A stretch of 64,000 bases of DNA from Arcobacter defluvii (GTDB lineage Bacteria; Campylobacterota; Campylobacteria; Campylobacterales; Arcobacteraceae), in NCBI RefSeq assembly GCF_013201725.1, contig NZ_CP053835.1:1054001-1118000 (forward strand), given 5' to 3'. The notes beneath the pieces were generated by a model. The model was not told where the DNA came from. It searched no databases and saw only the letters and a program-made list of their open reading frames with translations. This document shows, one piece after another, positions 3,001 to 29,531 of this stretch. Within the stretch, counting starts at the first letter, position 1; every line of letters starts with the position of its first letter. The position numbers were made by a program, and so were the translations under genes.

Positions 3001-4858
3001 TGTTTCAAGTGTACCAACATCAATAAGAACAAAAAATGATGGAAAAGGAACAGTAAATTTTGAAGGAACAACGACTTTATACACTGATATAGGTGAATCT
3101 TCTTCTAAACTTAATAGCGTTTATTTTGCTTCAAATGGGACATCAGCTGATACTTATACACAAGACCTTGGATATAATATTTATTCTTTAGATACAACAA
3201 TTGGGAATAATTTAAATAAAACAACTGTGAATATAAAAGATGATATAGCATTTGGTGGAAATTTAACTTTAAATGATAATTCAACATTAAATGTTAGTAA
3301 TAATGATATTTCAATAGCTGATAAATTAAATATAGGTAAGGATTCAACTTTAAATTTTAAAGTTTATACAACAGATTTAAGTGCGGGACAAGCTGTAGAA
3401 AATGGTGCTTCTGGAAGTATTACAGCTTCTTCTTTAACAATAGATAATAGTTCAAAAATTAATATTGATTATGAAGGAAGTTGGGAAGGTGCAGGGCAAT
3501 ATAATCTTATTACAACATCAAATTATTTAATTTCAAACTATTATGGAACAGAAGATAATGGTTTGGTTACGGATAATAGTATTATAGATTCAATCGTTAC
3601 AGTAAATGGAACAAATCTTACTTTATATGCGGATAGAACAAGTGGAGGCTCATTTAATCCAGAAGATTTATATATTGTAAAATCTGAAATAGGAAAAGAT
3701 TATTCAAATGGTGCTTCACAATCACTTGCTGGATATGCAAATGAAGCTGATAGAGCAGGAGCTTTAGCAGATATTGTTAGAAATATGGAAAAATATGATG
3801 GTGGAACACAATTATCAGCAGAGAAAAAACAAGAGATGATAAATACTCAAAGATTACTCGCTCCAACGGCAAATAATTCAAATATGCAAACTTCTATAAC
3901 TGCTTCAAATTTAGCAATAACAACAATAAGAGGAAGATTATCAGATATTAGAACAACAGAAATGAATAATTTCACTCCTAATATTTATAAAATGGGATTA
4001 TCATCAGGAGATTATTATAGTTTTGATACATCATTTTGGTTAAAAGCAATGGGTGGAAAAGCAACTCAAGATAAAGTAAATGAATACGATGGTTTTGATA
4101 CAACTACTTATGGTTTTGTTGGTGGTATGGACAAAATTACAAATGATGGAACAATTTTTGGTGCGGCTGTTGCTTATTCTACAACAAAAACAAATCAGGA
4201 CAATCTTGCTTCTGATAGTTCAGATACAACTAGTATTCAAGCAACACTTTACTCTTCTTTAGCTTTTGAAAATGCTTATGTAGATAGTTATTTATCTTAT
4301 GCAAAACATAAAACTGACGGTACAAGAACTGCAAATTCAGGAAAATTAACGTCAACAGTTGATGCTGATCAGATTTCAGCTAAAGTAGAAACAGGATATT
4401 CAATTCCTGTTAATGATGGAATTTCTGTAACGCCTTTTGCATCTTTAGAGTATAGTTTATTAAATCAAAAAGGTTATACAGAAAAAGGTACAGCTTATCA
4501 AAACGATGCTTTAAAAGTTGATAGTCTAAAATTAAATAGAGGAACAGTTGAAGTTGGAGCAAAACTTACTTCAAATATAGAGTTAGAAGATACTTTGATT
4601 ATTCCTCAGTTATCTGCAAGTGTATATAACTCATTTGGAGATAATAGCGCAGATATAAAAGCACAATATATAGGTGGAGGGAAAGAGTTTATTACACCAG
4701 CTAGTGAACTTAATAAAACTATGTATAACGTTGGATTAGGAGTAGAAACAAAAATATCTGATTCAACAAGTTTAATTTTTGATATGGATTATGATAGAAG
4801 TAAAGATGGTAAATTCCAAGGATATTCAGGAACAGTAACATTTGGTATTAGTTTCTAA
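2..4858 (+). CDS. Autotransporter adhesin (type Va), 3' part, repeat-rich passenger
   Basis: Open from the left edge, so the true start and signal peptide lie outside the window. The first part is a passenger rich in Gly, Asn, Ser and Thr with short beta-strand-like units such as GTLTLEGSS and VVLADN, as expected for a beta-helix passenger. Residues encoded up to about 1150 are tandem, near-identical units of 92-93 residues, and a further copy lies at about 1620-1895. The last roughly 300 residues (from about 3960) look like an autotransporter beta-barrel, with alternating aromatic strands and a terminal Phe after GTVTFGIS. Family knowledge says such proteins are exported by Sec, inserted by BAM and displayed as adhesins. 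The parvulin-like gene just downstream would suit outer-membrane assembly. The substrate or host ligand cannot be told. Confidence 0.85.
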   Translation, partial: TVSGTVGTDANKLKEINAGANGSNSTFSDDVYATNLDVEGTGTVNLDGNYKGTSIRYNADGTVVLADNKNINSSIINNSSTTPTGTLTLEGSSTVSGTVGTDANKLKEINAGANGSNSTFSDDVYATNLDVEGTGTVNLDGNYKGTSIRYNADGTVVLADNKNINSSIINNSSTTPTGTLTLEGSSTVSGTVGTDANKLKEINAGANGSNSTFSDDVYATNLDVEGTGTVNLDGNYKGTSIRYNADGTVVLADNKNINSSIVTNSTTPTGTLTLEGSSTVSGTVGTDANKLKEINAGANSSNSTFSDDVYATNLDVEGTGTVNLDGNYKGTSIRYNADGTVVLADNKNINSSIVTNSTTPTGTLTLEGSSTVSGTVGTDANKLKEINANGITGKTVTFEKDVYAITTNINSLEIKFESDLTSNIVANMSDQGVVSFIGDNSGKSQIITGNIGSSGSFISTLNIGESGNSTNYSTTTINGNIYANSTVLNNNGTANSSTLVLADGSDITSTITTADANMGILTLEGSSIVSGTVGTDANKLKEINAGANSSNSTFSDDVYATNLDVEGTGTVNLDGNYKGTSIRYNADGTVVLADNKNINSSIVTNSTTPIGTLTLEGSSTVSGTVGTDANKLKEINAATDGETVTFEKDVYAITTNLGSGITNFNTISGNTTSNIVFSGVGKANLNGYLDGNINFAGNDAVVNIADGKGILGSVETLANNTGILNFSGDGVVDDLIGSALYGINELNINTNDEQDKDSNGTVTSNGLLARKEIFADIINLRNNATLTLADNANITNTGLNSLIISTDNANTGNLVFEGSSSVTGTVGSSSKNLESIVAGASGETVTFNNMVYASNLNYASDGTVILKGNNDTNNEGFIGNVDFNSNAGTLEIADNVNLTTGSSGIEFTNANDATLTFNGTSTVYGVLGGNTTGNSTFERIYAGANNEIVTFKNDVYVEESNDTTFHVSGNGVVNFEGDLYGDLIFDADGIVNVDDSKSIIVSSVPTSIRTKNDGKGTVNFEGTTTLYTDIGESSSKLNSVYFASNGTSADTYTQDLGYNIYSLDTTIGNNLNKTTVNIKDDIAFGGNLTLNDNSTLNVSNNDISIADKLNIGKDSTLNFKVYTTDLSAGQAVENGASGSITASSLTIDNSSKINIDYEGSWEGAGQYNLITTSNYLISNYYGTEDNGLVTDNSIIDSIVTVNGTNLTLYADRTSGGSFNPEDLYIVKSEIGKDYSNGASQSLAGYANEADRAGALADIVRNMEKYDGGTQLSAEKKQEMINTQRLLAPTANNSNMQTSITASNLAITTIRGRLSDIRTTEMNNFTPNIYKMGLSSGDYYSFDTSFWLKAMGGKATQDKVNEYDGFDTTTYGFVGGMDKITNDGTIFGAAVAYSTTKTNQDNLASDSSDTTSIQATLYSSLAFENAYVDSYLSYAKHKTDGTRTANSGKLTSTVDADQISAKVETGYSIPVNDGISVTPFASLEYSLLNQKGYTEKGTAYQNDALKVDSLKLNRGTVEVGAKLTSNIELEDTLIIPQLSASVYNSFGDNSADIKAQYIGGGKEFITPASELNKTMYNVGLGVETKISDSTSLIFDMDYDRSKDGKFQGYSGTVTFGISF
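38..1147 (+). repeat. Four tandem near-identical passenger repeats (279, 279, 276, 276 bp)
   Basis: The segment beginning with codons for LKEINAGA recurs at 38, 317, 596, 872 and 1148, giving unit lengths of 279, 279, 276 and 276 bp. Units 1 and 2 appear identical base for base. Units 3 and 4 differ by loss of one codon (INNSS becomes VTNS) and a G-to-S change. Because all lengths are multiples of three, gain or loss of a unit keeps the frame. Confidence 0.95.
1619..1894 (+). repeat. Fifth, detached copy of the 276-bp passenger repeat
   Basis: A copy of the same unit, nearly identical to units 3 and 4, separated from them by about 470 bp of unrelated passenger sequence. It is followed by a segment starting with TVTFEKDVYAITTN, which also follows the fourth unit at about 1183, so the repeat plus its flank were duplicated together. 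Confidence 0.9.
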
Positions 4859-4879
4859 AAAGATTTAATTTAAGGATAA

Positions 4880-5611
4880 ATGATGATAGTAAAGAAAATA
4901 TCTCTATATATATTTTTAGCTTTTTTTAGTATTAATATATATGCAAATGAAATAGCTTCATATTCAGCTATAAAATATCATGCTGATTATGAAAAACAAA
5001 ATCCTAAAATGAAAGAATCTTTAGCAAAAGAATATTCAAAAGTTAGAAATTTAGCAAAAACTTTAGAAGCTACGGTTATGAAAAATGATGTTGATGTAGA
5101 AGTTGCAAAAAATTTAGCAATTGTTGATATTTGGTCGAATAAATTTATACAAAGTTATAAGCCAACTCAAAAAGAGTTAGAAGAACTTTATAAATTAGAA
5201 AAACCAAGAACAGTTGCAAAATATGAATTAAGAAATATTTTAGTTTCTTATGAAAAAAATGCCGATAGAATTATTGAAATGCTAAATGAAATAAAAAATA
5301 AACAAGAAAAAAAAGATTCATTTATCAAATATGTAAGATCAGTTTCAAATGATGTTGCTTCAAAGCAAAACAATGGTTTAACGGCATTAGTTGATGAAAA
5401 TAAATTAAATCCTCAAATAAAAGAGTCTTTAAAAGGAAAAAAAGAGGGTGAGATAGTAAAAGTAACTTTAAAAGATTTAGGAACACAAATTTTATATATA
5501 GAAAAATTTATTCCAGAAAAAGTTGCAACATTTGAAGAATCAAAAGATGCTTTAATAAATTTAGCAAAGAAAAAAGCTTTATTGAGAGAGATTGAATTAT
5601 TATCAAAATAA
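4880..5611 (+). CDS. Periplasmic parvulin-like peptidyl-prolyl isomerase / chaperone (SurA/PEB4 type)
   Basis: About 243 residues with a clear signal peptide ending near YANE. The N-terminal part is helical and charged, like the chaperone arm of SurA/PEB4 proteins. Residues of about 115-215 resemble a PpiC rotamase domain, including RNILVSYEKN and, near its end, GEIVKVTLKDLGTQILYIEK. Such proteins escort outer-membrane proteins through the periplasm. The gene begins 21 bp after the autotransporter stop, so the two are probably co-transcribed and the autotransporter is a likely client (inference). Two ATG codons lie in tandem; the second, at 4883, has the better spacing from AAGGA at 4872. The isomerase domain is divergent, so activity is uncertain. 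Confidence 0.7.
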   Translation: MMIVKKISLYIFLAFFSINIYANEIASYSAIKYHADYEKQNPKMKESLAKEYSKVRNLAKTLEATVMKNDVDVEVAKNLAIVDIWSNKFIQSYKPTQKELEELYKLEKPRTVAKYELRNILVSYEKNADRIIEMLNEIKNKQEKKDSFIKYVRSVSNDVASKQNNGLTALVDENKLNPQIKESLKGKKEGEIVKVTLKDLGTQILYIEKFIPEKVATFEESKDALINLAKKKALLREIELLSK

Positions 5612-5614
5612 AAA

Positions 5615-6436
5615 ATGAAATATATAAATTTTTTATTAGTAATTTTTCTTTTAACAGGTTGTATAAAAGATATTCCAACACCAAGTGAAAGAAAAAATAG
5701 TGTTTTATCTCTTGCAACAACGAAAAATTTTGATGAAATTGATATTTCTACTTCAACTTTTTCTTTATTTTCTTTGCAAAAACCAAATATCAACTGTCAA
5801 AATAAAAATCTAAAAGTTTACATTGAAGGTGATGGTTTAGCTTGGTTATCAAGAACCATAATTTCAAAAAATCCTACACCTCTAGATTCAACAATTATAA
5901 AACTAATATTTGATGATAATAGTGAATGTAAAGTCTATCTTGCCCGACCTTGTCAATATATAGATTCAAATATATGTAATAATAGTTTTTGGACTAATAA
6001 AAGATTTTCAGATGAAGTAATAAAGAGTTTTGATGAAAGCTTAAATATATTAAAAACAAAATATAAAAATAAAAATTTCACTTTAATAGGTCATTCAGGA
6101 GGAGGTGCTGTTGCAACTATATTGGCTTCAAAAAGAAATGATGTAGATTTACTTATTACAATAGCTGGAAATTTAGATATAGAAAAATGGACTACAATGC
6201 ATAAAATTTCTAAATTGGAAGGTTCTTTAAATCCAGCAGATTTTTCAAAAAATTTAGAACATATTAAACAATATCATTTAATTGGAACAAAAGATAAAAT
6301 TATTCCTAAAGATATATTTTTATCTTATTATTCAAAATTTTCAAAAAAAGATAATATAAAGTATAAATATTTTGATGCTGAACATAATTGTTGTTGGGAA
6401 GATCCATATAAAAAAATATTAGAAGAATTAAAATAA
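5615..6436 (+). CDS. Lipoprotein with alpha/beta-hydrolase fold
   Basis: The N-terminus is a short hydrophobic segment ending in LTGC, a lipobox, so the mature protein is probably lipid-anchored. A nucleophile elbow GHSGGG lies near residue 160, and a candidate catalytic His sits in DAEHNCCW near the C-terminus; an acid could be the Asp of GTKDKI. This is the usual serine-hydrolase triad order. It starts 3 bp after the chaperone gene and appears to be the third gene of the autotransporter operon. Cys residues are unusually frequent (CQNKN, CKVY, CQYI, CNNS, NCCW), which suits disulfides in the periplasm. Substrate unknown. Confidence 0.7.
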   Translation: MKYINFLLVIFLLTGCIKDIPTPSERKNSVLSLATTKNFDEIDISTSTFSLFSLQKPNINCQNKNLKVYIEGDGLAWLSRTIISKNPTPLDSTIIKLIFDDNSECKVYLARPCQYIDSNICNNSFWTNKRFSDEVIKSFDESLNILKTKYKNKNFTLIGHSGGGAVATILASKRNDVDLLITIAGNLDIEKWTTMHKISKLEGSLNPADFSKNLEHIKQYHLIGTKDKIIPKDIFLSYYSKFSKKDNIKYKYFDAEHNCCWEDPYKKILEELK

Positions 6437-6506
6437 ATTTTAGATAAAAAAAAGTAATTTGAGAGTAATTTGTAATATATAATTAAAAAAAATTCTAAGG
6501 AAAAGT

Positions 6507-7289
6507 ATGTATTCATTTTTAATGAACGAATCATTGAAAAATTTAATAATTCACCGCGTTGCACTTTTTAAAGCTTTAATAATCCCATTTATCTTATTAA
6601 CAATGATAAATATGATTTTTGATAATTTTATGATTTATGATGAAGTACAAGGGAGATTAGTATTTGCTAATGAAGAAGAAAAATATTTAGTATATTTTCT
6701 TTTATTTTTGACTTTCTTGATTAATATCTCAATTGCAGTATCTGTACATAGAATACTTCTAATAAATGAAGATATTTCGCCATGGCAAAGTGTTAAAACA
6801 ACAAAAAGAGAATGGAAATTTTTCTTTAAATCTTTTTTGATTTTTCTTTTTGGAGCTTTAACTTTTTTATTGATTTTTTTCTTTTCAACAGCCTTATTAA
6901 AAATCTTTATTGCAAATTTTACATTTCCAGTCTCTTTACTTTTATCTTTAATATTTACTCTAATAGTAATTAGCAGAATTTCTATTGTATTACCAGCAAT
7001 TGCAACAGATGAAGAGCTGGGCTTTTATGAAGCTTTCTCAATTACAAAAAATTATAAATTTTTATCTTTTTACATGGTAGGAATTTTCCCTACAATTATT
7101 TCTGTATTAGTTTTTTTTGTATATGGTTTAATTATAAATTTTTTGACAGTAGTTGTTTCAAATTATTTTGAATTACTTTATTCTTTATTGAATATGTTTA
7201 TTACGGCTTTTGTAATTAGTTGTTTATCTGTAACATATAAATATTTGAAAGAAGAAAGTTTGAGAAATATAGAGCAAATAGAAGAATAA
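6507..7289 (+). CDS. Multi-pass membrane protein of unknown function
   Basis: 260 residues with about six hydrophobic segments (around residues 20-40, 62-83, 107-132, 140-165, 187-212 and 222-245). The Arg and Lys residues lie in short loops. No catalytic motif is visible. The start is supported by AAGGA about 8 bp upstream of ATG. The layout loosely resembles membrane proteins of the YciC/DUF975 type, but I do not recognise it. It stands alone between the hydrolase and a hairpin terminator at 7295. Confidence 0.6.
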   Translation: MYSFLMNESLKNLIIHRVALFKALIIPFILLTMINMIFDNFMIYDEVQGRLVFANEEEKYLVYFLLFLTFLINISIAVSVHRILLINEDISPWQSVKTTKREWKFFFKSFLIFLFGALTFLLIFFFSTALLKIFIANFTFPVSLLLSLIFTLIVISRISIVLPAIATDEELGFYEAFSITKNYKFLSFYMVGIFPTIISVLVFFVYGLIINFLTVVVSNYFELLYSLLNMFITAFVISCLSVTYKYLKEESLRNIEQIEE

Positions 7290-7294
7290 TTTAT

Positions 7295-7325
7295 CTATAC
7301 ATAAAAATATTATTTTTATGTATAG
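7295..7325 (+). terminator. Perfect 15-bp inverted repeat after the membrane-protein gene
   Basis: Arms CTATACATAAAAATA and its exact complement surround a single central base, just after the stop at 7289. It is AT-only apart from two G/C pairs and is followed by AATTTTG, so it could be a weak terminator or a protein-binding palindrome. Confidence 0.5.
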
Positions 7326-7438
7326 AATTTTGTAAATTATATAAATAATACTTATTAATCATATGTAGTTAAATAGCAAAATCTTATAAATTAATTATTA
7401 ATATTATATAATATAATAATTCTAATTTAGGTGTTATT

Positions 7439-18334: not shown

Positions 18335-19114
18335 ATGACAAAAAAAGATAAACAGATTAAACAACTTTTAGATATTGAAGTAGAAAATAGAAATAAAAAT
18401 GATGAAATAAGTTACGATAAACCTGACCCTTTGATGGTTGCAAGAAGATATGATGATGAATTTATTATACTTTTATGTGCATTGTTTGCTTATGGAAATG
18501 CAAAGTTGATAGTGAAATTTTTAGATAGTTTGGATTTTTCATTGTTAAATCAGAGTGAAGAAATAATAGAAAAAGAGCTTAAAAATCATTATTATAGATT
18601 TCAAAATAGTTTAGATGTGATAAATATATTTAAAACTTTTAGACGAATGAAACAAGAGAATAGTCTAGAAAACTTATTTTATGAAGCTTATAAAAAAGAG
18701 AACTCTATCTTAGAAGGAATTGATGCTTTAATTCAAAAGATTCATAATCTATCAAACTACAATTCTCAAGGTTTTACTTTTTTAGTTTCTAGCCCTTTTA
18801 AAAGAGACAAAGTTGGACTTATAAAAGAAAATGGAAATGCTCCATATAAAAGATGGAATATGTATCTTAGATGGATGGTACGAGATGATAATCTTGATTT
18901 AGGACTTTGGAAAAATATAGATAAAAAAGATTTGATACTTCCACTTGATACTCACACTTTTAAAGTAAGTCAAAAACTTGGGTTATTAGATAGAAAAAAT
19001 TATGATTTGAAATCTGCTTTATTAATAACAGAAAAACTAAAAGAGTTTGATAATCTTGACCCGATTAAATATGACTTTGCGATATATAGGTTAGGACAAG
19101 AGAAAATTATATAA
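18335..19114 (+). CDS. TIGR02757 / DUF2400 family protein
   Basis: 259 residues from the ATG at 18335 (MTKKDKQ), preferred over an in-frame codon at 18260 whose extension overlaps the divergent SDR start. Diagnostic stretches are MVARRYDDEFIILLCALFAYG near the N-terminus, KRWNMYLRWMVR near residue 190, and LPLDTHTFKVSQ near residue 215. The family is common in Bacteroidota and Campylobacterota and resembles helix-hairpin-helix glycosylase-like folds, but its activity is unknown. Confidence 0.8.
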   Translation: MTKKDKQIKQLLDIEVENRNKNDEISYDKPDPLMVARRYDDEFIILLCALFAYGNAKLIVKFLDSLDFSLLNQSEEIIEKELKNHYYRFQNSLDVINIFKTFRRMKQENSLENLFYEAYKKENSILEGIDALIQKIHNLSNYNSQGFTFLVSSPFKRDKVGLIKENGNAPYKRWNMYLRWMVRDDNLDLGLWKNIDKKDLILPLDTHTFKVSQKLGLLDRKNYDLKSALLITEKLKEFDNLDPIKYDFAIYRLGQEKII

Positions 19115-19198
19115 ATAATCTTAAATTTGATTAATTTAAATTAAATACAATTTAGATAAAATAACTAAAAATTATATTTAGAAAGTTATATTTAATCG

Positions 19199-20722
19199 AT
19201 GGCAAAAGAAAAAAATAATAAAAATCAAAAATCTATGGAAGAAACTCTTTGGGAGAGTGCAAACAAACTAAGAGGTAGTGTTGAATCAAGTGAATATAAA
19301 CACATTGTTTTAGGGCTAATATTTCTTAAGTTTGTTAGTGATACATTTGAAGAACGAAGAGAAAAACTACTAGCTGAGGGTAAAGAAGCATTTATCGATA
19401 TGGTGGAGTTTTACGCTATGGAAAATGTATTTTATCTTCCTAGTGAGTCAAGATGGTCATACATAAAACAAAATGCAAAGCAAGATGATATAGCTCTCAA
19501 AATCGATACAGCTCTTGCAACCATAGAAAAAAACAATCCTAGCCTAAAGGGTGCATTACCTGATAACTACTTCTCAAGACTAAATCTTGATGTGAGTAAA
19601 CTTTCAAGCTTAATAGACACTATCAACAACATCAACACAATAGAAGACAAGGGACACGATGTAGTAGGTCGTGTATATGAATATTTCTTAGGTGAATTTG
19701 CACTTGCTGAGGGAAAACAAGGAGGGCAATTCTATACTCCAAAATCAATAGTAAATCTTTTAGCAAATATGATAGAACCATACAAAGGAAAAATCTACGA
19801 CCCTGCTTGTGGAAGTGGTGGTATGTTTATCCAATCTTTGAAGTTTATAGAAGTTCACAAAGGAAATAAAAAAGATATTTCTATCTATGGGCAAGAGTTT
19901 ACAGCTACCACTTATAAACTAGCAAAGATGAACTTAGCTATTAGAGGAATATCTGCAAATCTTGGAGCTGTTCCAGCTGATACATTTTTTAAAGACCAAC
20001 ATCCTGATTTAAAAGCTGATTATATTATGGCAAATCCACCTTTTAATCAAAAAGAGTGGAGAGGTGTAAATGAGCTACTAGATGATCCAAGATGGGCTGG
20101 ATATGATGTACCCTCAACTTCAAATGCAAACTATGGTTGGATTCTTCATATGCTTTCAAAACTATCTGAAAATGGAATAGCTGGATTTGTACTAGCAAAA
20201 GGAAGTTTGACAAGTAACTCAAGCAACGAAGGAGAGATAAGAAAACAACTAATAGAAAATAATCTAGTTGATTGTATAGTAAATCTTCCTGCAAAACTAT
20301 TTTTTAATACTCAAATTCCTGCGTGTTTATGGTTTATTAAAAAAAATAGAAAAACAAATGATATTTTATTTATAGATGCAAGAAATCTAGGGCATTTGAT
20401 AAATAGAAAAAACAAAGATTTTAGCCCTGAAGATATAGAACAAGTTGCATCTACTTATCACAACTGGAAAGTAAAAGAAAACTATGAAGATATAAAAGGG
20501 TTTTGTAAAAGTGCTTCTTTAGAAGAGGTTCGAGAACTAAACTATGTTTTAACTCCTGGGCGATATGTAGGACTAGAAGAAAGCGAAGATGAGTTTGATT
20601 TCAAAGAGAGATTTGAAAGCCTACAAAATGAACTGATAAACCAAATGAAAGAAGAAAAAGAGCTAAATGATAGGATATTGGCAAATTTAGCAAAAGTAAA
20701 TTTGGTGGCTGTTGATGAGTAG
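19199..20722 (+). CDS. hsdM: Type I restriction-modification methyltransferase subunit HsdM
   Basis: N6-adenine methyltransferase of a type I system. The N-terminal HsdM domain includes TLWESANKLRGSVESSEYKH. The SAM motif DPACGSGGMF lies at about residue 201 and the catalytic motif IV NPPF at about 279. At 507 residues it is full length. It opens a unit in which the following genes overlap or are 1-4 bp apart. Leu codons CTA/CTT are frequent here, unlike the inserted helicase module downstream where TTA dominates. Confidence 0.95.
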   Translation: MAKEKNNKNQKSMEETLWESANKLRGSVESSEYKHIVLGLIFLKFVSDTFEERREKLLAEGKEAFIDMVEFYAMENVFYLPSESRWSYIKQNAKQDDIALKIDTALATIEKNNPSLKGALPDNYFSRLNLDVSKLSSLIDTINNINTIEDKGHDVVGRVYEYFLGEFALAEGKQGGQFYTPKSIVNLLANMIEPYKGKIYDPACGSGGMFIQSLKFIEVHKGNKKDISIYGQEFTATTYKLAKMNLAIRGISANLGAVPADTFFKDQHPDLKADYIMANPPFNQKEWRGVNELLDDPRWAGYDVPSTSNANYGWILHMLSKLSENGIAGFVLAKGSLTSNSSNEGEIRKQLIENNLVDCIVNLPAKLFFNTQIPACLWFIKKNRKTNDILFIDARNLGHLINRKNKDFSPEDIEQVASTYHNWKVKENYEDIKGFCKSASLEEVRELNYVLTPGRYVGLEESEDEFDFKERFESLQNELINQMKEEKELNDRILANLAKVNLVAVDE

Positions 20723-21935
20723 TTGGAGAGAGTGTAAGTTGGGGGAATGTATAGAAGTGATTAATGGATATGCTTTTAAATCACAAAATTTTCTTGAAGA
20801 ACAAATTGAAAACTCATTGCCAGTTATCAAAATTAAAAATGTAGCCAATGGTGATGTGAATCTAAAAGCTGTTCAATTTCATTTATTTGATAAAAGTTTA
20901 GAAAAATATCTAATACAAAAAAATGATGTTTTAATTGCTTTGACAGGTAATCATCCTCAAGCAATAACACAAGTTGTAGGAGAGGCTTCTAAATATAAAC
21001 TTAATGAACTGGCATTTTTAAACCAAAGAGTCGCAAAAATAAAAGCCAGAGACAATATGTCTAATGATTTTCTTTACTATTTTTTGAAAGATGACGCCAG
21101 TCATGATTATTTAGCAAGTCAATCTTCAGGAAGTGCAAACCAAGCAAATATTTCTAAAAGTGATATTGAAAATATGCCAATTTCCCTTCCACCCCTTGAA
21201 GAACAAAAAGCAATAGCAGAAGTATTAAGTAGCCTTGATGATAAGATAGACCTTCTACATCACCAAAACCACACCCTAGAATCCCTCGCCCAAACTCTTT
21301 TTAGACAATGGTTTATCGAAGAAGCAAAAGAGGAGTGGGAGGAAAAACCGCTTGGTAAAATTACTAATATTACCATAGGAAGAACTCCTCCACGAAAAGA
21401 AGAAGAATGGTTTTCGACTGATCCTCAAGATGTTAAGTGGATTTCAATTAAAGATTTAGGTAATGATGGAGCATTTATTTTTAAAACGTCAGAATATTTA
21501 ACACAAGAAGCAGTTGAAAGATTTAATGTACCAGTGATTCCAAAAGATACAGTTGTTTTAAGTTTTAAAATGACTGTTGGAAGAGTAGCTGTTACAACAG
21601 AAGCAATGTTATCAAATGAAGCAATAGCACATTTTAAATTTAATGATAAAACACCTATCAGCAAAGAATATCTTTATTTGTTCCTAAAAACTTTTCCATA
21701 TGAAAGTTTAGGAAGTACATCTTCAATAGTTACAGCTATAAATTCAGCAATGATAAAGGAGATGATGATTTTAATTCCAGATGAAAAAACTATCAAAGAT
21801 TTTTCATCTATTGCAGAACCACAATTTGAAAAAATAAGACAAAATCAAAAACAAATTCAAACCCTTGAAAACTTGCGAGATACACTCTTACCTAAGTTTT
21901 TGAGTGGAGAAGTGAGGGTAAAGTTTGACAATTAA
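20715..21935 (+). CDS. hsdS: Type I specificity subunit HsdS
   Basis: Start ATG at 20715, overlapping hsdM by 8 bp; an adjacent TTG at 20712 is also possible. The 406 residues have the classic two-half design: TRD1 (about 1-160), a central conserved helix with SLPPLEEQKAIAEVLSSL and TLFRQWF (about 160-215), TRD2 (about 215-355) and a distal helix ending ENLRDTLLPKFLSGE. The two target domains decide each half of the bipartite recognition site, which cannot be predicted from sequence alone. It appears intact. Confidence 0.93.
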   Translation: MSSWRECKLGECIEVINGYAFKSQNFLEEQIENSLPVIKIKNVANGDVNLKAVQFHLFDKSLEKYLIQKNDVLIALTGNHPQAITQVVGEASKYKLNELAFLNQRVAKIKARDNMSNDFLYYFLKDDASHDYLASQSSGSANQANISKSDIENMPISLPPLEEQKAIAEVLSSLDDKIDLLHHQNHTLESLAQTLFRQWFIEEAKEEWEEKPLGKITNITIGRTPPRKEEEWFSTDPQDVKWISIKDLGNDGAFIFKTSEYLTQEAVERFNVPVIPKDTVVLSFKMTVGRVAVTTEAMLSNEAIAHFKFNDKTPISKEYLYLFLKTFPYESLGSTSSIVTAINSAMIKEMMILIPDEKTIKDFSSIAEPQFEKIRQNQKQIQTLENLRDTLLPKFLSGEVRVKFDN

Positions 21936-22695
21936 TCCATTAACTCATCATATTATTAATATAAATAATAATGTAAATTTACATATACTTGAGCTACAAG
22001 AAATAACAGATGAAATCAAAAGTTTTATAGATTCTAAAATTGTAAATATTACTAATGGAACAAGAAAAATAGATTTAAAAATCGTTAAAACTAAACTCAA
22101 AAACTTTCTAGCTTCAAAAAAAGGTAGCACTACAGAAATGGGTGCTATAGCTGAGTTTTTTATTCATTTGTATTTATCTACTCAAGAATATAAACAGGAG
22201 TGTTTATTTTTTAATTTAGAAGAAAATTCAATTAAAAAAGGATTTGATGGTTACTATTCAAAAGAAACTTTAGAATGGATTATGGAAAGTAAATCTGGTT
22301 TAAGTAGTACAAAAGGAATTTCTCATAAATCAAAAATCAAAGAAGCTTATGATGATTTAGATAATAAATTAAAAGGTAATGTATCAAATAATCCTTGGGA
22401 AAATGCTTTTCGACATGCAGATCAAAAAAGTGTAAATACGCAACAAAATATTGTTACAAATATAGATAATTTTTCTAATGAATTTGAACTTGGCATATTT
22501 AAAGATATAAAAGATTTTAACATTATTCCGACTGCTACAATTTTTTTAGATGGCAGTTGGAGTAATGATATTGAAAAAATAAAACAAGAAATTACAACAT
22601 TAATATCAACATTACAATACCAGAAGCTTGAAGTGATTTGTTTTACAAAAAAATCGTTAAATATATTTATTGACTATTTAAATTTGAAAGATTAA
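21925..22695 (+). CDS. PD-(D/E)XK nuclease-like protein, HamA/AbpA type (Hachiman-like)
   Basis: 256 residues. The start is TTG at 21925, overlapping hsdS by 11 bp, with GAGGG just upstream; the next in-frame Met is at residue 72, so a non-ATG start is needed. The core shows a restriction-nuclease pattern: Glu77 in the helix GAIAEFFIHLYL, Asp108 in KKGFDGYY, then Glu121-Ser-Lys123 in MESKSG, i.e. E...D...ExK. This spacing and the directly following Ski2-like helicase are what HamA (DUF1837) of the Hachiman defence system shows; the C-terminal strand TATIFLDGSW also suits. The family assignment is inference by pattern and context, not by search. It could alternatively be another helicase-coupled nuclease. 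Confidence 0.6.
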   Translation: MTINPLTHHIININNNVNLHILELQEITDEIKSFIDSKIVNITNGTRKIDLKIVKTKLKNFLASKKGSTTEMGAIAEFFIHLYLSTQEYKQECLFFNLEENSIKKGFDGYYSKETLEWIMESKSGLSSTKGISHKSKIKEAYDDLDNKLKGNVSNNPWENAFRHADQKSVNTQQNIVTNIDNFSNEFELGIFKDIKDFNIIPTATIFLDGSWSNDIEKIKQEITTLISTLQYQKLEVICFTKKSLNIFIDYLNLKD

Positions 22696-22696
22696 T

Positions 22697-25186
22697 ATGA
22701 ATCAAGCAGAAAAAACAAACTTAACGAATCTTGGCAAAAATCAAAAATTTAATGATGTTATGGAAAAATTAACTAAAAATATTCAATTAACAGAAGAAGA
22801 AAAAACTTATGTTCTAACGATTGCATTAATTTTTTTAAGATATTACGATAATGATAAAAAGTTTACTACATATATTGAGTTTGCATACTATATCATTCTA
22901 AAATATTCTATACAGTATCAAGATTATAAACCACTTTATGACTTTTCTACAGAGTTTGGTTTTTTTCCTATAACAAAAAATATACTACTAAATAAGTTAC
23001 TTGATAATTTGAGTATCAAAGATATTTTAATAGATTCAGAAATAGATTTTTATAACTATAAAGACCAATATATTCAAACAATAGAACAGTTTGATATTCA
23101 TAAAAATCTTTTAGAAGAAAATTTTCAAGATATTGCTTTCATTGCTCCTACTTCATATGGTAAAAGTTCTATTATTGTTGATTTTATCAAAAAATATAAT
23201 ACGGATGATATAAAAATAGGTGTAATTGTACCAAGTAAATCTCTTTTAATTCAAACATTTAATTTATTGAAAAAAGAGGATTTAGAAAAAAGACTTTTGC
23301 TTCATGATGAAATGTATGATAATGATAAAAGTTTTATAGCAATATTTACACAAGAAAGAGCATTAAGGCTTTTAAAAAAGAAAGATGTATATTTTGATAT
23401 TTTATTTATTGATGAAGCACACAATCTTTTTAAAAAAGATTCACGAAGCATCCTTTTATCAAGACTTATAAAAAGAAATTTACAAAGTAAATCAGATTCA
23501 AAAATAATATATTTATCCCCTCTTGTTCAAGAAATAAACAATCTTAAGGTTGGAAATACACAAGTTATAAATGAACAAAGAATTCATTTTAATATAAAAG
23601 AACCTGAAATTTTTGAGTATCTTACAAATGGAAATATTAGACAATACAATAGATTTACTGGGCAATTTTATGAAGTAGGTAATAGTTCAAACTATTTGGA
23701 ATATATTAATAATAATTCTTTAACAAAAAACTTTCTTTATTTAAAACGACCTAAAATGGTTGAGCAATTAGCAAATACATTAGCTGATAACCTTCCAGAA
23801 ATAAAGGGTATACAAAGTTTAATTAATATACTAAATGAAAATGTTCATGAAGAATTTTATATTTCAAAACTACTTACTAAAGGTGTCATCTATATTCATG
23901 GTAAACTTCCAGATATTATCAAAGAATATTTAGAATATAAGTTTAAAACAATTACATCATTAAAATATATTGTTGCTAATACAGTTATTTTGGAGGGTAT
24001 TAATTTACCAATAGATAATATGTTTATATTGAATGTTCACGAGTTATCAGAGAAAGATTTAACAAATTTAATAGGTCGAATCAACAGACTTGATACTATT
24101 TTCACATCTAATTCCAATAATTTATATAAATTACTACCAAAAGTCCATTTTGTCAATACTGATGAATATGGTCGAAAAAATGGGAAGATGCAGACCAGTA
24201 TAGAAAAATTAAGAAGTAAAATCTTTAAAGATAAAATTCAAAATCCGACTTTAGAATCATTTGATTTTGATGAACTTGATAAAAAGATTGAAAAAGCCAA
24301 AAAAGAGAAAGATAAAGAGTCGGCTATAAAAATGAAAGAAAGAATCATAGAATTGGTTGCAAATGAAAATTATTTATATCAAAAGTCAATAACTGAATTC
24401 GATAAATTAAAAAAATATTTCATAGAAAATGAACTAAATACATTTTATAAAAATTTTGATTCTACTATAGAAAAGATAAGTTTGAAAATTCAGAATATCA
24501 ATTTATCTGAGTGGCAACAAAAAAGGTTGCTTGATAAAATTTATAGTATTTTTATTGAAGGAATTGAAAACGACATCTCAAAGTATGAATTTAAACGATT
24601 GGAATTTGAGCCAACAAGAAATTATTATTCAGTCTATATTGACAGAAGTCATCAAAATACACTAAAAGAAAATATAAATCATTTATTTGAATATTTTAAA
24701 AAAAGAATTAAAGAAAAGAATAGTGAATTTTATTTTGGTGAATCTTATGGTGAAATCCCTAAGAGTACATCATCTTATACTGGCTATTCTAAACCTGTGT
24801 ATGTTGATTTAGCTAAATACAAAGACGATAGTAACAAATTAATCAATTTAGCAATCGTAAAATTACAAATGGAAGATAATTTTATTAGCTACAAATTAAA
24901 TAAATTCGTTGAGATGATGTATGACTATAAGTTAATTACCGATGAAGAATATAATCTTCATATCTATGGCACAGAAAAACCTAAAAATATTAATTTAATA
25001 AAATTTGGATTAAGTAGTAGTTTAATTTCAAAATTGGATGCTGATGAACAATTAGGAAATCTGTATATTGATGATTATGGTAATTTAAGATGTAATAATC
25101 TATTTGAAAATTTTTTAGAAAATATAGATGATTTTTATAAATTCCAGATTGAAAAATATATTTCAAAAGGTTTTGTAAATGAATAA
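22697..25186 (+). CDS. Ski2-like superfamily 2 helicase, HamB type (Hachiman-like)
   Basis: 829 residues, starting 1 bp after the nuclease gene. SF2 motifs in order: motif I APTSYGKSS (150-158), DEAH box FIDEAH (237-242), motif III-like YLSPL, a Ski2-type motif IV YIHGKLPD (399-406), motif V ANTVILEGINLPID (427-440) and motif VI NLIGRINRLD (457-466). EGINLP is typical of Ski2-like helicases. The C-terminal 360 residues are charged, partly coiled, and match nothing I can name. In Hachiman the HamB helicase senses damaged or phage DNA and licenses the HamA nuclease; the same role is inferred here. TTA dominates for Leu, unlike hsdM/hsdR, suggesting a separate origin. Confidence 0.7.
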   Translation: MNQAEKTNLTNLGKNQKFNDVMEKLTKNIQLTEEEKTYVLTIALIFLRYYDNDKKFTTYIEFAYYIILKYSIQYQDYKPLYDFSTEFGFFPITKNILLNKLLDNLSIKDILIDSEIDFYNYKDQYIQTIEQFDIHKNLLEENFQDIAFIAPTSYGKSSIIVDFIKKYNTDDIKIGVIVPSKSLLIQTFNLLKKEDLEKRLLLHDEMYDNDKSFIAIFTQERALRLLKKKDVYFDILFIDEAHNLFKKDSRSILLSRLIKRNLQSKSDSKIIYLSPLVQEINNLKVGNTQVINEQRIHFNIKEPEIFEYLTNGNIRQYNRFTGQFYEVGNSSNYLEYINNNSLTKNFLYLKRPKMVEQLANTLADNLPEIKGIQSLINILNENVHEEFYISKLLTKGVIYIHGKLPDIIKEYLEYKFKTITSLKYIVANTVILEGINLPIDNMFILNVHELSEKDLTNLIGRINRLDTIFTSNSNNLYKLLPKVHFVNTDEYGRKNGKMQTSIEKLRSKIFKDKIQNPTLESFDFDELDKKIEKAKKEKDKESAIKMKERIIELVANENYLYQKSITEFDKLKKYFIENELNTFYKNFDSTIEKISLKIQNINLSEWQQKRLLDKIYSIFIEGIENDISKYEFKRLEFEPTRNYYSVYIDRSHQNTLKENINHLFEYFKKRIKEKNSEFYFGESYGEIPKSTSSYTGYSKPVYVDLAKYKDDSNKLINLAIVKLQMEDNFISYKLNKFVEMMYDYKLITDEEYNLHIYGTEKPKNINLIKFGLSSSLISKLDADEQLGNLYIDDYGNLRCNNLFENFLENIDDFYKFQIEKYISKGFVNE

Positions 25187-25313
25187 CTACATTCCACCAT
25201 ACAAAATAACCTCAAAGATACTAAAGCTATTAATCCAAACTATTTTGAAAAGTGACCAAAAAAGTAACTATAAAAGTGACCGAAAATTTGTTTATTTTGA
25301 AGTAAAGGAATAA
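25179..25313 (+). pseudogene. Remnant of a Fic-family gene (44 codons)
   Basis: A short ORF starts inside the end of the helicase gene (8-bp overlap) and stops 3 bp before rhuM. It begins MNNYIPPYKITSKILKLL, which is the usual opening of Fic-domain AMP-transferases, but there is no Fic core motif (HxFx(D/E)GNGR). The second half (KSDRKFVYFEVKE) resembles the end of a winged-helix tail. I infer that an internal deletion removed the catalytic core and left the two ends fused in frame. Fic genes are often found in type I R-M loci. Confidence 0.5.
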
Positions 25314-25316
25314 AAA

Positions 25317-26321
25317 ATGGATAAATTTATACGAAATAGCACCGCTGAATTTTTAATTTTTACTTCACAAAACAAAGAAGATAGTATTGAAGTAAAAGTT
25401 TTTGAAGAATCTGTTTGGCTTACTCAAACTATGATAGCACAGCTTTTTGATGTTCAAAGACCAGCTATAACAAAACATTTAAAAAATATCTTTGAAAATG
25501 GTGAATTAGATGAAAATCAAGTTAGTTCCATTTTGGAACATACTGCAAATGATGGTAAAACTTACAATACAAAATATTATAATTTAGATGCAATTATTTC
25601 CGTTGGATATAGAGTAAACTCAAAAAAAGCTACACAGTTTAGACAATGGGCTACAAGTGTATTAAAAGAGTTTGCTATAAAAGGATTTGTTCTTGATAAA
25701 AAAAGACTAGAAAATGGTTCATTTTTAGGTCAAAACTATTTTGATAAACTACTTGAAGAAATAAGAGAGATAAGACTAAGTGAAAGAATGTTTTATCAAA
25801 AGCTAACAGATATTTACTCTACAAGTGTTGATTATAATAAAGATGATGAAACAACTAAAAACTTTTTTGCAAAAGTACAAAACAAACTTCATTTTGCTAT
25901 TCATGGACAAACAGCAGCTGAATTGATTTTCAATAGAGCAAATAGCGAAAAAGAGAAAATGGGATTAACTTCTTGGGATAATGCACCTGATGGTAAAATA
26001 TTAAAATCTGATGTAACAATTGCAAAAAATTATCTTAGTCGTGATGAACTTGAATCCCTTGGACGAGTTGTCAATGCTTTTTTAGATTTAGCAGAAGATA
26101 GAGCAAAAAGAAATATCCCAATGACTATGGAAGATTGGGCTACAAGACTTGATAAGTTTTTAGATGCAGATGATAGAGAAATTTTAAAAGATAGTGGAAA
26201 AATTACTAAAAAGATAGCTGATGAAAAAGCAATAACTGAATTTGAAAAATATAGAGTAATTCAAGATAGATTGTTTATGAGTGATTTTGACAAATTACTA
26301 CTTGAAATGGAAATAAAATGA
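25317..26321 (+). CDS. rhuM: RhuM-family protein
   Basis: 334 residues. The family hallmark is the DNA-binding-like N-terminus with VWLTQTMIAQLFDVQRPAI, followed by the Bro/KilA-like region LDAIISVGYRVNSKKATQFR. The C-terminal half includes HFAIHGQTAAELIFNRANS and ends in a helical segment. RhuM proteins are frequently encoded inside type I R-M operons and toxin islands; their role is not established, though a regulator or Fic/death-domain-like accessory function has been suggested. Its stop overlaps the hsdR start by 4 bp (ATGA), indicating coupling. Confidence 0.85.
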   Translation: MDKFIRNSTAEFLIFTSQNKEDSIEVKVFEESVWLTQTMIAQLFDVQRPAITKHLKNIFENGELDENQVSSILEHTANDGKTYNTKYYNLDAIISVGYRVNSKKATQFRQWATSVLKEFAIKGFVLDKKRLENGSFLGQNYFDKLLEEIREIRLSERMFYQKLTDIYSTSVDYNKDDETTKNFFAKVQNKLHFAIHGQTAAELIFNRANSEKEKMGLTSWDNAPDGKILKSDVTIAKNYLSRDELESLGRVVNAFLDLAEDRAKRNIPMTMEDWATRLDKFLDADDREILKDSGKITKKIADEKAITEFEKYRVIQDRLFMSDFDKLLLEMEIK

Positions 26322-29300
26322 GTAAATTTACAGAAGAAAAATTAGAGTTAGCATTTATAGAGCTACTTGAAAATCAAGGTATCACTTATCAATTTGGAAA
26401 AGAAATTATAAGAAATGAAAGTGAAGTTTTACTAGAAGATGATTTAAAAAAGTATTTAAAAAGTAGATATAAAACTGAAAATATCACTGATAGTGAAATC
26501 ACGGGGATTGTTCGAAAACTTCACTCTTACCCAGCAAGTGATTTGTATGATTCAAACAAAGCTATAATGAAACTAATCTCTGATGGATTTATTCTAAAAA
26601 GAGAAAAAGCTGATGATAAAGATATTTATATAGAGTTTATAAACTATAACGATGTAAACTCGAACAACTTTAAAATAGTAAATCAACTTGAAATTATAGG
26701 CTATGAAAAAAGAATACCTGATGGAATACTATATATAAATGGTATTCCATTGGTTGTGTTTGAGTTCAAAAGTGCCATAAGAGAAGAAGCAACTATACAT
26801 GATGCTTTTGTACAGCTAACAGTTAGATATAGAAGAGATATTCCAGAGCTTTTTAAATACAACGCATTTTGTGTAATAAGCGATGGAGTAAATAATAAAT
26901 CAGGTTCATTTTTCTCACCTTATGAGTTTTTTTATGCTTGGAGAAAAATTACTGGAAATGAAATAGATGTAGATGGAATCGCTTCTATGCACTCTATGAT
27001 TCAAGGAATGTTTGATAAAGAAAGACTTGTTGATGTAATTCACAACTTTATTTATATGCCTGATAAATCAAAAAAAGAAGAAAAGATAGTTTGTCGTTAT
27101 CCTCAATACTATGCTACTAGAAAACTATATGAAAATATAAAAGTTCATCAAAAGCCACAAGGGGACGGAAAAGGTGGTACATACTTTGGTGCTACTGGAT
27201 GTGGTAAAAGTTTTACTATGCTTTATCTTACTCGTATGCTTATGAAAAGTATTCATTTCTCAAGTCCTACAATTATACTTATAACTGATAGAACAGATTT
27301 AGATATACAGCTTAGTAGTCAGTTTTCAAATGCAAAAGGTTTTATCGGTGATGATGGAATAGTAAGTGTTGAAAGTAGGGTAGATTTAAGAGCTAGATTA
27401 AATGGAAGAGAAAGTGGGGGAGTATTTTTAACAACTATACATAAGTTCACAGAAGATTTAGAGATTCTAAGTCATAGAACAAATATTATAGTGATTTCAG
27501 ATGAAGCCCATAGAAGCCAAATTAACCTAGACCAAAAGGTAAAGGTAACTGATAAAGGTGTTAAAAAAACTTACGGTTTTGCAAAATACTTGCATGATTC
27601 ACTACCAAATGCAACTTATGTTGGATTTACTGGAACTCCTATTGATGCAACACTTGATGTGTTTGGAGATGTTATTGATAGTTATACTATGACTGAATCA
27701 GTTAGAGATGAAATCACAGTTAGAATTGTATATGAAGGAAGAGCAGCTAAAGTTTTACTTGATAACTCAAAACTTCATGAAATAGAAAAATATTATGATG
27801 AATGTGCAACTCTTGGAGCAAATGAACATCAAATAGAAGATAGTAAAAATGCTATGGCAAATATGAGTCAAATTCTTGGTGACCCAGATAGAATAAAAGC
27901 AATAGCAAAAGATTTTGTAGAACACTATGAAAAAAGAGTAGAAGAGGGTGCAACACTAAAAGGAAAAGCTATTTTTGTATCAAGTTCAAGACCTATTGCT
28001 TATGCACTTTTTAAAGAACTAATAGCATTAAGACCATCATGGAATGAATCAAGAGTTTGTGATGAGGGAATAGAGCTAAGTGATAAAGATAAAAAAGAGA
28101 TTCTTCCTCTTGAAAAACTAAAAATGATTATGACTCGAAATAAAGATGATGAAAAAGAGTTGTATGATGCACTTGGTACAAAAGAGTATAGAAAAACTTT
28201 AGATACACAGTTTAAAAATGAAAAATCAAACTTTAAAATAGCTATTGTTGTTGATATGTGGCTAACTGGATTTGATGTACCATTTTTGGATACTATTTAC
28301 ATAGATAAACCTATACAAGAACACAATCTAATCCAAACTATCTCAAGGGTAAATAGAAAATATGCAGGAAAAGAAAAAGGATTAGTAGTTGATTATATAG
28401 GTATAAAAACTGCTATGAATAAAGCTTTAAAACAATTCTCAAGAATAGACTCTCAAAACTTTGAAGATATTGAAGCTTCAATAGTTGTAGTAAGAGACCA
28501 ACTTGATTTACTTGCTAAACTATTTTATAAATTTGATACTAACAAATATTTTAGTGGAAGTGCCTTAGAACAATTAGAGTGTTTAAATCTTGCTAGTGAA
28601 TTTGTACAACTTACTAAAGAGCTTGAAACTAGATTTATGTATATAGTAAAAAGACTAAAATCAGCTTATGATATTTGTTGTGGTAGTGAAGTGTTTAGTC
28701 AAAAGGAAAAAAATTATATTCACTTCTATTTAGCTGTTCGTTCAATCGTTGTTAAACTTACAAAAGGAAAAGCTCCTGATACAGCTCAAATGAATGCAAA
28801 AGTTGCCCAAATGATAGAAGAAGCACTAAAAAGTGAAGGTGTAGAAGAAATCTTCAAGCTTGGAAGTGAAGATGAAAGCAAGATTGATATTTTCGATGAA
28901 GATTACATAAACAAAATAAATAAAATCAAACTACCAAATACAAAGATAAAACTACTTCAACAGCTACTAGCCAAAGCTCTTGAAGAGTTTAAAAAAGTAA
29001 ATAAAGTAAAAGCAGTGGATTTTTCTAAAAAGTTTAATGCCCTTGTAGAAAAATACAATGAAAGAAAAGAAGAAGATGTACTTGTCAGTGAGGTCTTAAA
29101 TGACTTTACTGATGAGATAATTGACCTTTATCATGCTTTACAAAAAGAAAAAGAATCATTTGGTGATTTAGGTATAGACTTTGAAGAAAAAGCTTTTTAC
29201 GATATTTTAAAAACAATAGCTATTAAATATGATTTTTCATACCCTGAAGATAAACTTCTATCACTTGCAAAAGAAGTAAAAATTGTAGTTGATGATAAAT

Positions 29301-29461
29301 CAAAATATACAGATTGGAATATAAGAGAAGATATAAAAGCAGAGTTAAAAGTAGATTTGATAATGCTTTTAGCAAAACATGGTTATCCACCAATTACAAA
29401 AGATGAAGTATTTAAAGAGATTTTTGAACAAGCTGAGAATTTTAAAAAATTTAGAAAATAA
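26318..29461 (+). CDS. hsdR: Type I restriction endonuclease subunit HsdR
   Basis: 1047 residues, the DNA-translocating restriction subunit. The N-terminal PD-(D/E)XK nuclease is seen as GIPLVVFEFKSA (ExK, near residue 143). The helicase motor has Walker A GATGCGKSFTM (about 291), DEAH in SDEAHRSQ (about 394), FTGTPI (about 438) and motif VI-like QTISRVNRKY. The C-terminus is the HsdM/HsdS-binding helical domain. Length and motifs indicate an intact enzyme. It closes the island; about 70 bp separate it from the next gene. Confidence 0.95.
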   Translation: MSKFTEEKLELAFIELLENQGITYQFGKEIIRNESEVLLEDDLKKYLKSRYKTENITDSEITGIVRKLHSYPASDLYDSNKAIMKLISDGFILKREKADDKDIYIEFINYNDVNSNNFKIVNQLEIIGYEKRIPDGILYINGIPLVVFEFKSAIREEATIHDAFVQLTVRYRRDIPELFKYNAFCVISDGVNNKSGSFFSPYEFFYAWRKITGNEIDVDGIASMHSMIQGMFDKERLVDVIHNFIYMPDKSKKEEKIVCRYPQYYATRKLYENIKVHQKPQGDGKGGTYFGATGCGKSFTMLYLTRMLMKSIHFSSPTIILITDRTDLDIQLSSQFSNAKGFIGDDGIVSVESRVDLRARLNGRESGGVFLTTIHKFTEDLEILSHRTNIIVISDEAHRSQINLDQKVKVTDKGVKKTYGFAKYLHDSLPNATYVGFTGTPIDATLDVFGDVIDSYTMTESVRDEITVRIVYEGRAAKVLLDNSKLHEIEKYYDECATLGANEHQIEDSKNAMANMSQILGDPDRIKAIAKDFVEHYEKRVEEGATLKGKAIFVSSSRPIAYALFKELIALRPSWNESRVCDEGIELSDKDKKEILPLEKLKMIMTRNKDDEKELYDALGTKEYRKTLDTQFKNEKSNFKIAIVVDMWLTGFDVPFLDTIYIDKPIQEHNLIQTISRVNRKYAGKEKGLVVDYIGIKTAMNKALKQFSRIDSQNFEDIEASIVVVRDQLDLLAKLFYKFDTNKYFSGSALEQLECLNLASEFVQLTKELETRFMYIVKRLKSAYDICCGSEVFSQKEKNYIHFYLAVRSIVVKLTKGKAPDTAQMNAKVAQMIEEALKSEGVEEIFKLGSEDESKIDIFDEDYINKINKIKLPNTKIKLLQQLLAKALEEFKKVNKVKAVDFSKKFNALVEKYNERKEEDVLVSEVLNDFTDEIIDLYHALQKEKESFGDLGIDFEEKAFYDILKTIAIKYDFSYPEDKLLSLAKEVKIVVDDKSKYTDWNIREDIKAELKVDLIMLLAKHGYPPITKDEVFKEIFEQAENFKKFRK

Positions 29462-29531
29462 CAAAATGTTACTTTCAAGTTATATATAAATGTTATACTT
29501 CTTCTATCAAAATAGTAGGGGGAAATTATTT

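Follow-up and report, generated by a model that had tools for sequence, protein, structure and literature searches.

We analysed a 64,000-nucleotide stretch of the Arcobacter defluvii genome (assembly GCF_013201725.1, contig NZ_CP053835.1, positions 1,054,001 to 1,118,000, forward strand). This whole stretch is called the window, and all coordinates count within it. Two neighbouring genes of the window very probably encode the Hachiman system (HamAB), with a divergent HamA. They lie inside a type I restriction-modification (R-M) operon, where they occupy an exchange slot between hsdS and hsdR. The identification draws on sequence comparison and predicted structures. So read, both the system and this kind of location are already known, and the pair is a divergent representative. 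The first open reading frame (ORF A, hamA; 21925–22695, + strand) has a TTG start and encodes 256 amino acids. The second (ORF B, hamB; 22697–25186, + strand) has an ATG start and encodes 829. A preliminary description of this DNA had placed both genes between hsdS and rhuM/hsdR, 1 nucleotide (nt) apart, with the first starting inside hsdS. We find the same arrangement, and the overlap with hsdS is 11 nt. The motifs quoted at that time (E77, D108 and E121xK123; APTSYGKSS, DEAH, EGINLP and GRINR) are all present in the translations. The proposal that a HamA/HamB pair lies within a type I R-M operon is supported by HamB profiles, transitive HamA homology, a fold match and adjacency of the genes in 11 of 11 judged loci.

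The small protein resembles HamA

Judged by sequence and predicted model, the small protein is a HamA with the HamA fold and residues D108/E121-x-K123. The neighbouring hamB, transitive profile homology and the predicted fold match lead us to this assignment. For profile comparison, a close HamA group was formed by the proteins of the window, L008, L009 and L010, and a middle group by those of L011–L013. These groups align with each other in hhalign (Prob 98.6, E 8.9e-16). Within the middle group, L012 (genome G067) clears the Pfam HamA cut-off, scoring 46.4 bits against 25, and L013, which has no Pfam match, is recognised by four PADLOC HamA models. The middle group alone aligns with canonical HamA at Prob 89.3. 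Only via such intermediates is the hhalign match to canonical HamA strong (89.9, E 1.7e-6), rising to 93.9 and E 1.5e-7 when all ten aligned members are used. Three of these ten match PF08878 and four match the best PADLOC HamA models. In hhalign, E77, D108, E121 and K123 fall on the conserved Glu, Asp and Glu-x-Lys of HamA. The same four residues do not vary among the 10 aligned sequences, which comprise the window protein and nine relatives with 22–48% identity to it, two of which (L080 and L081) are near copies. Hence, the motif is not a chance occurrence.

The AlphaFold2 model of HamA has a predicted local distance difference test score (pLDDT) of 75.8 and a predicted template modelling score of 0.76. 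Foldseek returned a single match with E ≤ 0.001 among PDB entries: HamA of E. coli Hachiman (8vxy_A, E 1.2e-6). Thus, the first protein does have a fold match to a PD-(D/E)XK nuclease, a point on which the preliminary description could have failed. In VIA, the model scored Z 11.3 with 8zue_A (258–535), 10.4 with 8vx9_A and 10.1 with 8vxy_A; the next row was MspJI, at 5.4. Residues 2–256 of the model align on HamA 1–252 of 8vx9 over 205 residues at 3.9 Å.

The helicase belongs with HamB

By sequence and model, the large protein is a superfamily 2 Ski2-like helicase of the HamB family. It matches 11 PADLOC models. The top eight are all HamB, led by PDLC00176 (HamB1; E 1.7e-38, residues 26–780), in agreement with the preliminary description, which had left this profile check to be made. 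Pfam assigns generic helicase domains only. In all eight aligned HamB sequences, the Walker A motif, DEA, the G-x-N-x-P within EGINLP and GRxxR do not vary. A profile of those eight sequences, window included, was compared with the PDB. The best match was 9wh1_B (E 7.4e-57, profile positions 7–803), followed by 8zue_B (3.4e-31) and 8vx9_B, which is named HamB (2.8e-17). All three outrank Brr2-type, Ski2 and Hel308 chains. Foldseek with the predicted model placed 8zue_B first (4.6e-13), with Hel308 and 8vx9_B (2.0e-10) among the top six. Hachiman HamB carries a helical bundle at its N-terminus and WH*, helical and OB parts at its C-terminus, which make contact with HamA and DNA. For the window protein, helices are predicted at the N-terminus within residues 3–87, in a model whose overall confidence is modest. 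A phmmer search of the PDB with HamB gave no match.

The preliminary description had suggested a divergent or new variant, citing the size of the helicase and its unassigned last 360 residues. Divergence applies to HamA. The helicase is of ordinary HamB size, since the eight best-scoring PADLOC HamB models are 836–871 long, and most of the final 360 residues are assigned because the best model covers 26–780. A new helicase class was considered and rejected, as HamB is matched over its full length.

hamA and hamB occur together

Relatives of HamB were found in seven of 150 related genomes (the window's own included), two genome contigs, three viral contigs and 21 plasmid records. Two of the plasmid records were matched with at least 80% cover; the other 19 fell below 80%, mostly over the helicase core. 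Eleven loci could be judged for gene order: the window, L008, L009, L010, L011, L012, L013, L014, L080, L081 and L082. In every one, a HamA-like ORF lies directly upstream of hamB on the same strand. The count leaves out G095/L062 (contig end), G390/L061 (fusion), L065 (C-terminal HamA piece), L064 (fragments) and the 19 partially matched plasmid records. Consistent separate occurrence of the two genes, which would have spoken against the pair, was not seen, three very weak HamA matches elsewhere, in G004, G086 and G106 (E about 0.009), standing outside this comparison. A tblastn search with HamA gave no match in plasmids and phages, and the close HamA group found none in viral contigs.

Several relatives show further features. 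In G390/L061, a 687-amino acid ORF (5325–7388) fuses the first half of HamA, in frame, with the later part of HamB, apparently through one deletion. In L008 (7948–8778), from a Helicobacteraceae metagenome-assembled genome, hamB appears by eye to be split by an opposite-strand transposase-like gene. Both genes are fragmented yet adjacent in L064, a Staphylococcus aureus plasmid. In the viral contig L082, hamAB (3075–6394) lies between apparent phage tail genes, as judged by eye. This flanking suggests a prophage-borne Hachiman. A different Hachiman-like pair occurs in the same genus as the window (G006/L063, 4788–7992). Its 390-amino acid HamA passes PF08878 and is accompanied by a 679-amino acid helicase-like ORF, recognised by eye.

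Points against a Hachiman assignment

Several results weigh against the identification. HamA of the window has no match in Pfam or PADLOC, lying below the thresholds of the PF08878 and PADLOC HamA profiles; hence the direct DUF1837/HamA profile check proposed in the preliminary description came out negative. NCBIfam also gave no match for it, a null that is uninformative because NCBIfam gives none for L012 either. Compared directly with canonical HamA in hhalign, the close group scores weakly (Prob 16.5, E 0.0015). The HamA-group sequence profiles found no HamA chain in the PDB. One aligned HamA member also matches the CARF_PDDEXK_AAA model (E 0.00047). The published HamA motif is D-GEXK (PMC12799240); the window protein has Met, not Gly, before E121. 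The HamA-like ORF of L014 was recognised by alignment with canonical HamAs, and tblastn with the window HamA does not match it. The HamB model has a pLDDT of 66.1. Finally, VIA with that model gave high ranks to Pol theta, Ski2 and Hel308, and none of the 50 rows listed was a HamB chain; we take this absence to say nothing against a HamB assignment of the model.

Two phmmer matches of HamA in the PDB (E 0.25 and 0.69) were weak and taken as chance. PF08878 at E 0.001 has no match in the window's genome. In a class sample of 298 genomes, PF08878 has matches in 24 but overlooks G000 and G041. In a phylum sample of 397 genomes, five are matched by the close HamA profile, among them the window's genome, the G390 remnant and two from the middle group. 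A HamA branch exists that is invisible to current Pfam and PADLOC models, and its HamB is recognised by PADLOC. Because profiles miss this HamA while recognising the HamB, such Hachiman systems have probably been counted too rarely or recorded as solitary helicases.

Comparison with Hachiman and AbpAB

E. coli Hachiman HamAB (PDB 8vx9, 8vxa, 8vxc and 8vxy; PMC12278908) shares with the window pair the hamA-hamB order, a HamA fold with D/E-x-K and a Ski2-like HamB. The differences are that the window HamA is too divergent for Pfam and PADLOC profiles and has Met in place of Gly before Glu, that its HamB has 829 residues against 1174 in 8vx9_B, and that the pair lies inside an hsd operon. The best sequence match of the HamB profile, near full length, is the 853-amino acid helicase chain of PDB 9wh1. 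However, the HamA-type chain of that pair has 528 residues, about twice the window HamA. The 9wh1 chains are named Anti-bacteriophage protein A/HamA C-terminal domain-containing protein and DNA polymerase theta (Helicase domain only).

AbpAB (PDB 8zue; PMC10732053) likewise combines a HamA-like domain with a related helicase. The window pair might be of this type, in which case its HamA-like domain would be an adaptor for a different nuclease domain and its helicase would be an AbpB. Consistent with this, VIA ranks the HamA-like domain of AbpA (8zue_A) highest for HamA, and Foldseek places 8zue_B first for HamB. However, the VIA scores of 8zue_A and 8vx9_A differ by less than 1 and so count as tied. 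AbpA is described as a protein of 538 amino acids, with a Cap4 nuclease domain at 5–215 and HamA at 294–519 (PMC10732053). The window protein aligns to the HamA part only and retains its own D/E-x-K residues. We looked for an N-terminal nuclease domain beyond HamA in its 256 amino acids and found none, nor any Pfam family. Lacking Cap4, the pair was rejected as AbpAB, an identity that we regard as very unlikely. Hachiman is the better name because the protein is the HamA part only and keeps D/E-x-K.

An exchange slot between hsdS and hsdR

Genes related to hsdR of the window were found in 21 of 150 genomes, its own included. Among the other 20, regions were taken for 18, the exceptions being G116 and G014, whose contigs start at hsdR. 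Both hsdS and hsdR are in view in 16 of the 21 operons. At least one same-strand ORF of at least 100 amino acids lies between them in 13 of these 16, window included, the operons without one being L066, L072 and L079. Cargo was scanned with PADLOC in seven of the 13 (L067, L068, L070, L071, L073 and L074 fell outside the scan). The window slot holds Hachiman and RhuM. In G018/L052, where hsdR is 97% identical to that of the window, the slot holds AAA_13/PDC-S06, PDC-S42 and Fic. In G032/L053 (hsdR 87% identical), it holds the Kiwa proteins KwaA (1e-76) and KwaB (3.6e-124) with PDC-S42, and in G034/L055 (79%) the Lamassu proteins LmuA, LmuC and LmuB. The remaining slots contain weaker KwaA/KwaB matches with PDC-M62A/B (G063/L076), a weak KwaA match (1.1e-07) with two matchless ORFs (G125/L075) and Dsr1 at 1888 bits (G138/L078). 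By blastp with the window hamA and hamB, Hachiman occupies the slot of the window only among these operons. Judged from gene content, the slot is an exchange site for other defence systems in related operons. The window operon and the three with hsdR 79–97% identical place four different cargoes in one slot and form a natural series for asking whether embedded systems depend on R-M. Reading the DNA between hsdS and hsdR is also a simple way of looking for new systems.

Second defence modules in type I R-M operons have precedents. DarTG2 of enteropathogenic E. coli sits between hsdS and hsdR (PMC12255303). Vibrio cholerae TgvAB (PMC11411939), Campylobacter jejuni rlo genes (Miller 2005, via PMC2610378) and prrC (PMC3874165) are likewise embedded in such operons. 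The available text of these four reports does not name Hachiman as the embedded system, and a partial literature survey yielded no published report of Hachiman between hsdS and hsdR. No paper treating Arcobacter and Hachiman together was found in the literature searched. In that literature, one paper, a Staphylococcus review, has Kiwa, Lamassu, hsdR and hsdS together.

Proposed mechanism and possible coupling to R-M

In E. coli Hachiman, HamB surveys DNA and restrains HamA; once DNA damage is detected, the helicase acts and HamA breaks down the DNA of both phage and host (Tuck et al. 2024, PMC12278908). We infer the same mechanism for the window pair, since it retains the HamA fold, the D/E-x-K residues and the helicase motifs. 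HamB would keep HamA inactive while surveying intact DNA. Damaged or aberrant DNA, arising from phage infection or other insults, would start ATP-driven HamB action. This would activate HamA, phage and host DNA would be degraded and the infected cell would end. Gene order suggests that the pair is co-expressed with hsdM and hsdS from the operon. R-M may thus serve the cell as a first, sequence-specific barrier, with Hachiman behind it as a suicidal second line.

A closer relationship can be imagined, in which the pair is no independent system but guards or assists this R-M enzyme and is set free or activated by failed restriction or by the breaks that restriction makes, by analogy with PrrC and EcoprrI. 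The location in the operon fits, PrrC is embedded in and sequestered by its type I enzyme (PMC3874165) and Hachiman is switched on by DNA-damaging agents (PMC12278908). However, relatives of the pair lie outside hsd operons: tblastn with hsdM, hsdS, rhuM and hsdR of the window gave no match in the other 10 judged loci, each covered over 7–15 kb. Sister operons hold unrelated systems in the same slot, so adjacency alone is no proof of coupling. We consider such a guard role quite improbable. Cargo exchange fits a general dock as well as it would fit regulation by the R-M enzyme, and prrC indicates that regulation can happen. Alternatively, the slot may be no random dock but favour second-line systems whose silence or activation depends on the state of the R-M enzyme; the operon would then act as a general alarm for failed restriction, and its killers could be swapped. 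This broader idea is speculative and rather doubtful. If it were true, HamAB would be activated by HsdR-made ends, by stalled translocation or by anti-restriction proteins, and so would Lamassu, Kiwa, Dsr1 or the AAA/Fic set in the sister operons.

One other hamB was seen beside hsd genes, in L065, a Subdoligranulum plasmid. There (112–7412), a DUF3800 gene comes after hsdM/hsdS-like genes and precedes a C-terminal piece of HamA and a hamB of full length.

History of the site

Similarity between the window and G018 at the DNA level covers 19130–20202 (87.7%) and 26310–29461 (93.1%). Between these blocks, only 25177–25239 (+ strand) is shared, with 88.9% identity. These 63 bp correspond to the start of the G018 (L052) fic gene (E 3.75e-17), which is intact in G018. 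This remnant of the fic start overlaps the hamB stop. Read most simply, a fic gene formerly lay downstream of hamB and has since been lost. A decaying neighbour raises the question of whether the pair is itself non-functional, decaying cargo, the more so as relatives degrade (the fused deletion remnant in G390, the S. aureus plasmid copy in pieces and the split hamB of L008). However, neither window ORF is truncated and both retain all motifs, and we hold decay to be most improbable.

The whole hsd operon (19114–29490) is flanked by a TIGR02757 gene and a cytochrome c-like gene. The former is present in 28 genus relatives, seven of which have the cytochrome gene within a 1.5-kb flank. In three of the seven (L089, L101 and L105), the two genes adjoin without an hsd operon. 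In G001/L084, a distant hsdM (32% identical) occupies that place between the flanking genes.

GC content is 23% in hamA and hamB against 29–33% in hsdM/S/R. The share of TTA among Leu codons is 0.62 in hamA and 0.52 in hamB against 0.24, 0.33 and 0.29 in hsdM, hsdS and hsdR. Thus, the Leu codon contrast reported in the preliminary description is real. It is a weak sign of later insertion, as five nearby host genes have TTA shares of 0.42–0.79; hence, by this measure, the hsd genes are the odd ones. We rejected Leu codon use as proof of insertion, hamAB lying within the range of nearby host genes. Cargo exchange at the site is established independently of codon use, because related operons hold different cargo.

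Operon layout and gene starts

The operon comprises six + strand genes from 19199 to 29461: hsdM, hsdS, hamA, hamB, rhuM and hsdR. The first gene, hsdM (19199–20722), encodes the modification subunit (PF02384 2e-109, HsdM_N 1.4e-25; PADLOC MTase_I). The specificity subunit gene hsdS (20712–21935) matches PF01420 in two stretches (5.3e-35). Between the Hachiman pair and hsdR lies rhuM (25317–26321; PF13310 3.6e-108, PADLOC PDC-S05). The last gene, hsdR (26318–29461), encodes the restriction/translocase subunit (PADLOC REase_I, 1270 bits; PF04313, PF18766 and PF11867). Besides that between hsdS and hamA, overlaps occur between hsdM and hsdS (11 nt) and between rhuM and hsdR (4 nt). The sole longer gap is 130 nt, from hamB to rhuM.

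The TTG start of hamA is backed by alignment of MTINPLTHH with MNINPFDSH of L010 and by GAGG 7 nt upstream. No signal of an internal promoter was found at hamA: the region has 60 promoter-like sites against a shuffle mean of 64.7, and such a promoter was rejected. The gene overlaps point to a single transcript across the operon.

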